64,000 nucleotides of DNA, taken from contig NZ_QURL01000004.1 in NCBI RefSeq assembly GCF_003403015.1, positions 1 to 64,000 on the forward strand, in the 5' to 3' direction. Of this stretch, positions 18,053-20,748 are shown piece by piece. Within the stretch, counting starts at the first letter, position 1, and each line of letters opens with the position of its first letter. The notes beneath the pieces are model-generated. The model had not been told where the DNA came from and did no database searches. It saw only the letters and a list, made by a program, of their open reading frames with translations. The position numbers and the translations under genes are program-made. Source of the DNA: Fulvimarina endophytica (GTDB taxonomy: Bacteria > Pseudomonadota > Alphaproteobacteria > Rhizobiales > Rhizobiaceae).

Positions 18053-18583
18053 TCACTCGGCCGCGCGCCTCGGCCTGATCTCCGCATTGAGCGGGCGGGA
18101 TGCGAGGCCCGAGGCGAGCTGCGCCAGCGGCTCTCCCCCCAATTGCTTCACCCGTCCGAGCGCCTGCGGCTTCTTCAGCAACAGACCGGTCTCGAGTGCC
18201 GAGGGCCGCGAGGTCAGGCGCGAGAGAAAGCCCATCCTGTCGCGCGCGGCAGGCCGGAACCGGGCGGGCCCGGTCCCCTTTCGTCCTGAGGCACCCTGAA
18301 GATGCTCGAGCACTTCGGACGTCCAGCCCTGCAGGGGCCGGCTGCCGATTTCGAGCCAGAGGAGCCAGTCCGAACGATCCCGGCCGATCGCCGTTTCCAG
18401 GGCGGAGGGCTGAATGACGACGCATCCGCTGTGTTCGGCGATGCGGTGCGCCCCCTCGCTCATTCCCCGGTCGATCAGGACGACGGTTCGAACGATCCCC
18501 TCCACCGCCCCGGAGACGAGTTCGGCGAGCGTCAGGGCAAGCAGCCGCTCTTCGGCTCCGCAATCCATGTAGACGGTCAACAT
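18053..18583 (-). CDS. Hypothetical protein with a degenerate glycosyltransferase-2-like N-terminus
   Basis: A 176-aa protein. The opening MLTVYMDCGAEERLLALTLAELVSG and VVLIDRGMSEGAHRIAEHSGC look like the first beta-alpha unit of a family-2 glycosyltransferase, but the length is half of an active enzyme and no DXD motif follows, so catalysis is doubtful. Similar short proteins beside moaB are known to me from Rhizobiales as 'glycosyl transferase'. It starts 120 bp from the radical SAM gene on the opposite strand, so the two LexA boxes between them could affect both. Function unknown. Confidence 0.6.
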   Translation of the reverse strand: MLTVYMDCGAEERLLALTLAELVSGAVEGIVRTVVLIDRGMSEGAHRIAEHSGCVVIQPSALETAIGRDRSDWLLWLEIGSRPLQGWTSEVLEHLQGASGRKGTGPARFRPAARDRMGFLSRLTSRPSALETGLLLKKPQALGRVKQLGGEPLAQLASGLASRPLNAEIRPRRAAE

Positions 18584-18631: not shown

Positions 18632-18646
18632 GTTCTTGTCTTGTTC
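18632..18646 (+). promoter_or_regulatory. LexA (SOS) box 1 with overlapping promoter
   Basis: GTTC at 18632-18635 and GTTC at 18643-18646 are separated by exactly 7 nt, the direct repeat used by alphaproteobacterial LexA. The fuller match GTTCTTGTCTTGTTC is close to the rhizobial consensus. A possible promoter lies on it: TTGTCT (18636-18641) and TAAATA (18659-18664), 17 bp apart, so LexA binding would cover the -35. Confidence 0.75.
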
Positions 18647-18676
18647 TCATTCATCGATTAAATATGGGGATAACGA

Positions 18677-18691
18677 GTTCACGAAATGTTC
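18677..18691 (+). promoter_or_regulatory. LexA (SOS) box 2
   Basis: A second GTTC-N7-GTTC repeat (GTTC at 18677-18680 and 18688-18691), 45 bp downstream of the first and ending 11 bp before the radical SAM start codon. It overlaps the GAGG ribosome binding site (18692-18695) at its edge. Two boxes flanking one promoter suggest tight repression. Confidence 0.6.
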
Positions 18692-18702
18692 GAGGTTTTC
18701 AG

Positions 18703-19860
18703 ATGCTGGATATCGCTCATGCCGATCGTGCCGCCTTCGATCCCGCGCTCGGAACCGACTATGCCAACCGTATCATCGCGGAGGGCGGCGCCCGCATCGG
18801 GCCGGATCGCCGGCGAGGCCGCGGCGCAGGCATCAATCCCGCAGGTCGCTTCGAGCCCTTCGCTCGCAGGGATATCGATGACGGCTGGGACAGCCTCGAA
18901 AACCTTCCTGCCTTCAGGACCGAAGTTCAGGTCGAGAAGCCGCGCACCATCATCACCCGCAACACCTCGCCGGACATCTCCTTCGATCGTTCGGTGAACC
19001 CCTATCGGGGATGCGAGCATGGATGCGTCTACTGCTTCGCGCGGCCGAGCCACTCCTATATAGGCCTTTCGGCCGGACTGGACTTCGAGACCAAGCTGTT
19101 CGCCAAGCCGAATGCGGCCCAGCTTCTGGAGCGAGAACTGTCGCGGCCCGGCTATGCGGTGCGCTCCATCGCCATCGGCACCAATACCGACCCCTATCAG
19201 CCGATCGAGAAGCAGCACCGCATCATGCGCGAGATTCTCGAAGTCCTGGAGGCGGCCAATCATCCGGTCGGCATCGTGACGAAGTCCGCTCTCGTCCTGC
19301 GCGACATCGACATCCTCTCGCGCATGGCGGACAAGGGCCTTGCGCGCGTAGCGCTCTCCCTCACCACCATGGACCGCAAGCTCGCCCGCACCATGGAGCC
19401 CCGCGCCGCGACCCCGCAGAAGCGCATCGATGCGATCCGGGAACTCAGCCAAGCCGGCATTCCGACCATGGTGATGACCGCACCGGTCATTCCGGGTCTC
19501 ACCGATTCGGAAATCGAACGGCTGCTGGAAGCGGCGGCGACCGCCGGCGCGAAGGAGGCCGGTTACGTGCTGCTGCGCCTTCCTCTCGAAGTCTCGCAGA
19601 TCTTCAAGGACTGGCTCCTGCGTCATTATCCGGACCGCTATCGCCACGTCCTCTCCCTTCTGCGCTCCATGCGCGACGGCAAGGACTACGACGCCGAATG
19701 GACCAAGCGCATGCGGGGCACGGGGCCCTATGCCCATCAGATCAAGCGCCGCTTCGATCTGGCGACCAAACGGCTCGGTCTCAATCAGGAGCGCAAACCC
19801 CTTCGGACCGATCTCTTCGTGCCGCCGCGGGGCGCCGGCGTCCAGCTGTCGCTGATCTGA
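18703..19860 (+). CDS. PA0069-family radical SAM protein
   Basis: A 385-aa radical SAM enzyme. The iron-sulfur signature CEHGCVYC (a CX3CX2C motif) follows NPYRGCEHGCVYCFARPSHSY, and downstream SAM-binding segments are IGTNTDPYQPIEK and GIVTKSALVLRDIDIL. The family is related to spore photoproduct lyase and is found widely as 'PA0069' or 'Rv2578c', but its reaction is unknown to me. The start at 18703 is fixed by GAGG 7 nt upstream; longer in-frame starts would run through the promoter and LexA boxes. The two SOS boxes point to a role in DNA damage, as does its relation to SPL. rnhB lies 165 bp downstream. Confidence 0.9.
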   Translation: MLDIAHADRAAFDPALGTDYANRIIAEGGARIGPDRRRGRGAGINPAGRFEPFARRDIDDGWDSLENLPAFRTEVQVEKPRTIITRNTSPDISFDRSVNPYRGCEHGCVYCFARPSHSYIGLSAGLDFETKLFAKPNAAQLLERELSRPGYAVRSIAIGTNTDPYQPIEKQHRIMREILEVLEAANHPVGIVTKSALVLRDIDILSRMADKGLARVALSLTTMDRKLARTMEPRAATPQKRIDAIRELSQAGIPTMVMTAPVIPGLTDSEIERLLEAAATAGAKEAGYVLLRLPLEVSQIFKDWLLRHYPDRYRHVLSLLRSMRDGKDYDAEWTKRMRGTGPYAHQIKRRFDLATKRLGLNQERKPLRTDLFVPPRGAGVQLSLI

Positions 19861-20025: not shown

Positions 20026-20748
20026 ATGGCTTGCTCTTCATCCGATTCTCCAATTCCCTTACCCGGTTCAGCCGATCCGGCCGCGCCGAATGGCGGGGAC
20101 GAGATGCCTGCGGCAGGCCGCAAGGCAAAATCGCGCGCCCGCCCCCTCCCCGATTTCACGCTCGAGGCGCAGCTCCTGACATCCGGGGAGCGTCTCGTTG
20201 CCGGCATCGACGAAGTGGGCCGCGGCCCCCTTGCCGGACCGGTCGTTTGCGCCGCCGTGATCTTCGAGGCCGAAGCCGATCTGCCGGACGGGCTCGACGA
20301 TTCCAAACGGCTGACGGCCGCAAGACGAGACCGGCTCCACGAGGAGATCCTGCGGCGCGCTCATGTGGCCATCGCCGCCGTTCCGGCCGCGATCATCGAT
20401 CGGATCAACATCCGCCAGGCGACGCTTCTCGCCATGACGCAGGCAGTGGAGCGTCTGCCGGTTCGGCCCTCCCACTGCCTCTTCGATGGCCGGGAAGTAC
20501 CCGAACCCTTTCGCGACATCGGAACCGCGATCGTCGGCGGCGATCGTCTCAGCGCCTCCATCGCCGCCGCCTCCATCGTCGCGAAGGTCAGCCGAGACCG
20601 CATGATGCTGCGCGCCGATCGTCTGTTTCCGGGCTACGGCTTTGCGACCAATATGGGATATGGCGCACCCATCCATCTCGCGACGATCGCCGAACAGGGC
20701 CCGACGCCGATCCACCGCATGAGCTTCAGGCCGCTCTCAGCCCTTTAA
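20026..20748 (+). CDS. rnhB: Ribonuclease HII
   Basis: RNase HII removes ribonucleotides and RNA primers from RNA-DNA hybrids. The 240-aa product has the catalytic opening GIDEVGRGPLAGPVV (first Asp/Glu pair), DDSKRLTAARR, the third acidic site in HCLFDGREVP, and AASIVAKVSRDRMM with the Asp near 195. The N-terminus has an extra ~55 residues rich in Ser, Pro and Arg; the alternative ATG at 20104 would remove half of it. In many Rhizobiales the cell-cycle methylase ccrM follows rnhB, but here the ATP synthase operon does. Confidence 0.95.
   Translation: MACSSSDSPIPLPGSADPAAPNGGDEMPAAGRKAKSRARPLPDFTLEAQLLTSGERLVAGIDEVGRGPLAGPVVCAAVIFEAEADLPDGLDDSKRLTAARRDRLHEEILRRAHVAIAAVPAAIIDRINIRQATLLAMTQAVERLPVRPSHCLFDGREVPEPFRDIGTAIVGGDRLSASIAAASIVAKVSRDRMMLRADRLFPGYGFATNMGYGAPIHLATIAEQGPTPIHRMSFRPLSAL

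Follow-up and report, generated by a model that had tools for sequence, protein, structure and literature searches.

A predicted LexA operator conserved upstream of a PA0069-family radical SAM gene with a fold related to spore photoproduct lyase

The DNA analysed here, called the window, is a stretch of 64,000 nucleotides from contig NZ_QURL01000004.1 of Fulvimarina endophytica. A gene on its + strand (18,703–19,860) encodes a 385-residue radical SAM protein (PF04055) with a CxxxCxxC motif formed by C104, C108 and C111. The sequence-only reading had assigned this gene to the PA0069 family, and correctly so: the protein scored 571.8 bits against NF033668 (PA0069 family, hypothetical equivalog; cut-off 360) over nearly its full length. 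We saw no difference between the protein and this family (rSAM_PA0069), to which the model assigns no function. The Rv2578c family (NF038135) has a homologous core but gave 233 bits, below its 430-bit cut-off, and is a sister family rather than the same one. The closest named genome among the matches listed was Aurantimonas coralicida, with 80% identity. The longest open reading frame begins at GTG 18,604, which would put both of the boxes described below inside the gene; this start was rejected and ATG 18,703 was taken, as several relatives align with the protein from its first residue onward when it starts there. A ribosome-binding site read from the sequence (GAGG, 18,692–18,695, + strand) lies 7 nt before it. 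Downstream, rnhB for ribonuclease HII (20,026–20,748, + strand; PF01351, 140 bits) starts 165 nt after the radical SAM stop codon, and upstream there is a divergent gene (18,053–18,583, − strand) that has no Pfam or NCBIfam match.

Two exact GTTC-N7-GTTC direct repeats precede the gene on the + strand, both at the positions first reported for them: box 1 at 18,632–18,646 (GTTCTTGTCTTGTTC) and box 2 at 18,677–18,691 (GTTCACGAAATGTTC). Such a repeat at a promoter has the form of the alphaproteobacterial LexA operator; box 1, which is conserved upstream of orthologues, is a predicted operator, and box 2 is a second LexA-like box. The window holds five matches to the motif against 1.89 expected, and five or more were reached in 4 of 100 shuffles; by itself, this count is weak evidence for function. 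Across the genome there are 89 matches per strand, and reversing the pattern gives 14 and 27. The motif with a T before the second GTTC is found in the host genome at lexA, between uvrA and ssb, and before a DNA polymerase III alpha gene, and occurs at 39 places in all, many of them within reading frames. It is because of conservation, not motif count, that box 1 stands above chance. At a further locus (L079; G000:C24:25537-25551) a LexA-like box, apparently intergenic, lies beside a gene with matches to the anti-phage models ProA and Hhe, matches that concern the part of the gene inside the locus and are below the whole-protein cut-offs.

Of 81 genomes sampled from the host's taxonomic family, 77 (host included) carry the gene, and the other four are 1.1–1.9 Mb in size. 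In a span covering 350 bp of upstream sequence and the first 30 bp of the gene, GTTC-N7-GTTC was found at 74 of the 77 orthologues, always in the orientation of box 1, a count that does not represent independent events because the genomes share ancestry. A check for boxes before orthologues in relatives, proposed with the original claim, therefore came out in favour of box 1. The three orthologues without an exact motif are L049, L100 and L134, and for L134 just 128 bp of upstream sequence was searched. The spacing was specific: within 200 bp upstream, N7 occurred at 73/77 loci, and every other spacing in the range N3–N12 at 2–5/77. In control windows within and after the gene the N7 motif was found at 0/77, 0/77 and 0/76 loci (the two intragenic windows being 210 nt long). 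Control genes of the same family (30 loci each, from 41 genomes searched each) behaved accordingly, with the motif at 30/30 lexA loci and at none of the 29 orientable gyrA loci, one of the 30 being left out since its orientation was not assignable. For recA (L422-L451), the strict motif was present within 300 bp at 9/30 loci, fewer than for the radical SAM gene. The strict pattern therefore misses some SOS promoters and is an incomplete readout of the regulon.

The association extends through the class. Of 82 matches among 144 alphaproteobacterial genomes, 78 (one per genome) were over the cut-off and were counted, and GTTC-N7-GTTC lay within 300 bp of the aligned start in 67 of these 78 genomes, host included. 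Gene-body windows gave 0, 1 and 0 of 78, and the motif is thus conserved before orthologues beyond chance. At least one of the 67 motif loci has the opposite orientation. Five of the 11 misses carry a single-base variant, and at L146 the motif lies further upstream, beyond those counted in the 67. In further genomes of the host's order the motif was found in 15/16 (22 genomes from outside the class set, 16 of which had ready loci and were counted), and at 74 named loci out of 80, these being the best of at least 596 matches, a set from which the host genome is perhaps absent. At G134:C3:15439-16481, and on contig C1 of G300 and G451, the radical SAM gene is broken or in multiple pieces.

Outside the class, the operator changes. 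CTGT-N8-ACAG preceded the gene in 23 of 32 Pseudomonadota other than Alphaproteobacteria and was not found at the other nine, GTTC-N7-GTTC occurred in 0/32, and CTGT-N8-ACAG in turn occurred at 0/78 alphaproteobacterial loci. This set came from a phylum search with 120 matches, 6 of them under the cut-off; 40 genomes outside the class were over the cut-off, of which 32 were counted and 8 left out, with beta and gamma classes pooled. According to the part of PMC3323433 available to us, the LexA motif of Alphaproteobacteria differs from that of most beta and gamma species. The switch matches this reported difference, and the gene would therefore keep its regulator while its operator changes.

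The boxes had been described as flanking a possible promoter, an arrangement that our alignments contradict. A −35-like hexamer, TTGTCT (18,636–18,641, + strand), lies within box 1, and a −10-like hexamer, TAAATA (18,659–18,664, + strand), follows it; the first is predicted from the family and class alignments, the second, a weak match, from the family alignment and from TATAnT-like hexamers across the class. All 74 motif loci of the host's family have a box that starts GTTCTTG, as the motif search itself shows; in the promoter alignment the invariant TTG is built in, since that alignment was chosen on GTTCTTG-N4-GTTC. In the class set, which was not selected on TTG, T, T and G stood at box offsets 4, 5 and 6 in 68/81, 67/81 and 61/81 loci. 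In the family alignment, a T at offset 27 and an A at offset 28 were each present in 71/74, 17 nt beyond the TTG element, a spacing that would be that of −35 and −10 elements. Box 1 thus probably includes the −35 element, which makes occlusion of the polymerase by LexA likely. Transcription would begin near 18,671, and box 2 would therefore lie in the 5′ leader, downstream of the start point and ending directly before GAGG. A scan for consensus sigma-70 promoters called none, the −10-like hexamer included, and was dropped as evidence for or against a promoter.

Two further features emerged from the promoter alignments. At class loci L155, L167, L217 and L218 a TATAnT-like hexamer at offsets 26–28 is followed 6–8 nt later by the ATG, which suggests that the radical SAM message is leaderless in several other alphaproteobacterial families. 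Most of the 74 host-family promoters (L033-L132) carry the block TAGGAATA-N3-TTCAT at box offsets 27–41, longer than a −10 element needs to be; the window has TAAATATGG at this position instead. We considered whether this block may be read as Irr-like or as another palindrome.

The two-box arrangement is real in the host but confined to its genus among the 77 family loci: box 2 was found at two of them, in the host and in G022, the only other sampled genome of the genus. As part of the proposed mechanism, LexA would also bind box 2, shortly after the predicted transcription start, and this second site would probably tighten repression in this genus. Alternatively, box 2 could have arisen by chance and serve no function. 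Chance alone would place about two such motifs in 64 kb, box 2 is missing from 75 of the 77 relatives, and a pair of boxes was seen in the searched stretch at none of the named loci (the best 80 of at least 596). Against this, box 2 lies at the same distance in both genus genomes, and all eight half-site bases are identical while 3/7 spacer bases differ, and we consider a chance match rather unlikely.

GANTC, the CcrM methylation site, was present at box offsets 42–62 in 34 of 74 host-family promoters (L031-L060, L089-L135), which are not 34 independent events because the genomes are related. Its free base was T in 19, G in 8, A in 5 and C in 2. It was the commonest gapped four-letter word at these offsets (34, the next reaching 20), and 200 shuffles gave a mean of 4.3 and a maximum of 11. 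Other 20-nt windows tried in the promoters had GANTC in 0–6/74 and the 15-nt window at 27–42 had it in 9, and outside the host's family it was found in 2/81. For comparison, GANTC occurs somewhere in the 200 bp upstream of about 24% of Agrobacterium genes, as given in the available part of PMC11514494. These nearly fixed positions suggest joint SOS and cell-cycle control in the promoters concerned. At the corresponding place in the window (18,674–18,693) and in G022, GANTC is absent and box 2 (offsets 45–59) stands there instead.

Among the best 80 of at least 596 named loci, rnhB followed the radical SAM gene within 4 kb on the same strand at 69, elsewhere at 1, and was not found in the flank at 10. 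The projected gap between the radical SAM gene and rnhB was below 300 nt at 53 of these best 80 loci, with the two genes touching or overlapping at a few, and 325 nt to 3.2 kb at 16. Co-transcription with rnhB is thus likely in part of the loci only. RNase HII may be partly SOS-induced in the host's order. The divergent gene at 18,053–18,583 starts about 49 bp from box 1, which could in principle make it the owner of the box and the radical SAM gene a bystander, and a homologue of it was found at 62 of the 77 host-family loci. However, the box was present at 14 of the 15 loci where the searched flank showed no such homologue, its orientation relative to the radical SAM gene was identical in 74/74, it stays with this gene across the class, and a −10-like element keeps a constant position on the side of the radical SAM gene. 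Ownership by the divergent gene is therefore extremely improbable.

The protein had also been described as a distant relative of spore photoproduct lyase, and this held at the level of fold but was not recovered by a sequence profile. An AlphaFold2 model built with 58 family members had a mean pLDDT of 91.5 and a pTM of 0.90. Spore photoproduct lyase came first in a Foldseek search of solved structures (E 1.7e-8), and in VIA-align it was first of 50 listed entries, its structures 4fhc and 4rh0 having a Z of 18.9 over 271–273 residues, with the next family at 14.7. A profile of the 58 family members searched against PDB chains returned no lyase and seven weak matches (SkfB, NifB and haem-sensor cyclases), and hhalign of the family against a lyase chain aligned the C-terminal part only, with 33% probability. 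The kinship is therefore one of fold, since the sequence profile gave no lyase. phmmer with the single protein against the PDB found only chance ribosomal matches and was dropped as a test of kinship.

The window protein and the lyase share the fold, CxxxCxxC and a tyrosine before the third cysteine. C104, C108 and C111 are invariant in 58/58 family members, as is Y110, the counterpart of Y97 in the Bacillus enzyme. They differ in the residues that complete the reaction. In Bacillus, C141 is the hydrogen donor and is needed for repair in spores, and Y99 takes part in the relay, according to the available part of PMC3742179. In contrast, the only cysteines of the window protein are its three cluster ligands, and no other cysteine column exceeds 23/58 in the family; a fourth conserved cysteine that could donate hydrogen was not found among the 58 proteins. 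The place equivalent to C141 (about T160) comes from a hand alignment, of which the missing-cysteine result is independent. Y99 is replaced here by F112, and this column is F in 39/58 and Y in 19/58. With the hydrogen-donor cysteine absent, there can be no cysteine-to-tyrosine relay, and either the lesion or the way in which the radical is quenched would therefore differ from the lyase.

Could the gene still encode a true spore photoproduct lyase, for SOS-controlled reversal of UV thymine dimers? The lyase is the closest solved fold, Y97 is retained as Y110 in 58/58, and alphaproteobacterial splB is called a predicted photolyase in the available part of PMC3323433. Loss of the cysteine is no absolute bar either, because Bacillus C141A still turns over in vitro, at 0.14 compared with 0.41 per min (about a third), giving mainly an SO2 adduct (PMC3742179, part available). 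Nevertheless, this protein has no counterpart of C141, with three cysteines in all and no fourth conserved column in 58 proteins, most family members (39/58) have F at the place of Y99, and the sequence profile had no match to lyase chains. Across the class, gene presence was unrelated to that of photolyase (odds ratio 1.2, p 0.6), which bears on light repair instead. A true lyase is thus very improbable. Judged by the model, the PA0069-type protein is a radical SAM enzyme of the lyase fold and not a lyase proper, and the name photoproduct lyase would be unwarranted.

LexA control of genes of this kind has been predicted before. Sanchez-Alberola et al. (2012; PMC3323433) predicted it for splB in alpha- and beta-proteobacteria and termed the role of splB photoreactivation, in the part of the paper available to us, although the lyase reaction itself is SAM-driven. 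Their splB is, like the present gene, lyase-like and preceded by the class-specific LexA motif, a likeness to the PA0069-family gene drawn from its description in the available text. As far as that text goes, it concerned multi-chromosome genomes, and the trait was not observed in its gamma-proteobacteria, whereas we counted 78 alphaproteobacterial genomes and 32 other Pseudomonadota and also looked for the catalytic cysteine. The available parts of other papers place a radical SAM protein in the core Gram-positive regulon and in that of Balneolaeota (PMC7739468) and link SplB-like genes to SOS operons (PMC3765255). In Streptomyces, the radical SAM gene vnz_31145 was assigned to the LexA regulon by ChIP-seq and mitomycin C RNA-seq (PMC9380542, part available); we set it beside the Rv2578c family by its description there. 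PMC8565304 is also among the printed support for the explanation proposed below. As splB-like LexA control is already in print, the host gene is a well-supported case of a known kind.

PA0069 in Pseudomonas aeruginosa and Rv2578c in Mycobacterium are probably LexA targets as well. Among open-licence papers, we found none that names PA0069 or Rv2578c together with LexA. Likewise, no substrate tested for the PA0069 family and no observation of the CcrM site was found in the available parts of the open-licence literature, with searches partly aimed elsewhere.

Taken together, we propose that the radical SAM gene belongs to the LexA/SOS regulon, in which it has been widely retained, and encodes a lyase-fold radical SAM enzyme that acts on damaged nucleic acid, a reading to which we give a probability of about 0.8. 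SOS control had been claimed through two boxes; box 1 gains strong support from its conservation across genomes, while the second box is a feature of the genus. LexA control through box 1 is very likely on this comparative evidence. The co-occurrence of the gene with DnaE2, described below, also counts in favour of the proposal. LexA bound to box 1 would cover the predicted −35 element, whose TTG is within the box, and so block RNA polymerase. Upon DNA damage, RecA stimulates the self-cleavage of LexA, which would free the promoter and induce the gene. The product would be a [4Fe-4S]/SAM enzyme, most likely making a 5′-deoxyadenosyl radical to act on damaged nucleic acid, a predicted substrate that we regard as somewhat favoured, and a role on DNA lesions is plausible.

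A different view of the substrate is that the enzyme is SOS-induced but modifies RNA, a compound of the nucleotide pool or a protein of the SOS mutasome, and not a DNA lesion. The next-scoring folds are radical SAM enzymes with lipoyl protein, peptides, tRNA and nucleotides as their substrates, and the gene tracks DnaE2 and not photolyase. In 99 class genomes of at least 2 Mb, both the gene and DnaE2 were present in 63, the gene without DnaE2 in 12, DnaE2 without the gene in 8 and neither in 16 (Fisher p 6e-6, with genomes taken as independent and kinship uncorrected). The association weakened when the size range was narrowed (p 0.004 at ≥2.3 Mb; p 0.017 at 2.0–3.5 Mb), and in the same 99 genomes there was none with photolyase (p 1.0). 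For these counts three partial photolyases (G136, G152 and G160, of which two passed the cut-off) were scored absent, and the split dnaE2 of G214, which is under the cut-off, was scored present. On the other side, the closest fold is, by a clear margin, that of a DNA-lesion enzyme, and SplB-like genes occur in DNA-repair operons of other bacteria (PMC3765255, part available). A substrate other than a DNA lesion is accordingly the less likely of the two, and we consider it doubtful. Action on damaged nucleic acid remains our preferred reading of the enzyme.

A more speculative extension, which we think improbable as a whole, is that the PA0069 family forms a second class of radical SAM enzymes that process lesions, this one cysteine-free and SOS-induced across Pseudomonadota under the LexA motif of each lineage. 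Its partners would be the DnaE2 mutasome and, in Hyphomicrobiales, also the RNase HII encoded downstream, and in many members of the host's family the promoter would read CcrM methylation as well. If this is true, the level of the enzyme would there respond to DNA damage and the cell cycle alike.

SOS regulation of such a gene is by itself not new, and interest shifts to the substrate of the enzyme. The chemistry usually assumed for it conflicts with the protein's own cysteines, which raises the questions of which lesion is processed and what quenches the radical. That a LexA operator has been kept before this gene despite the change of operator sequence between classes means that the gene is very likely useful during DNA damage.
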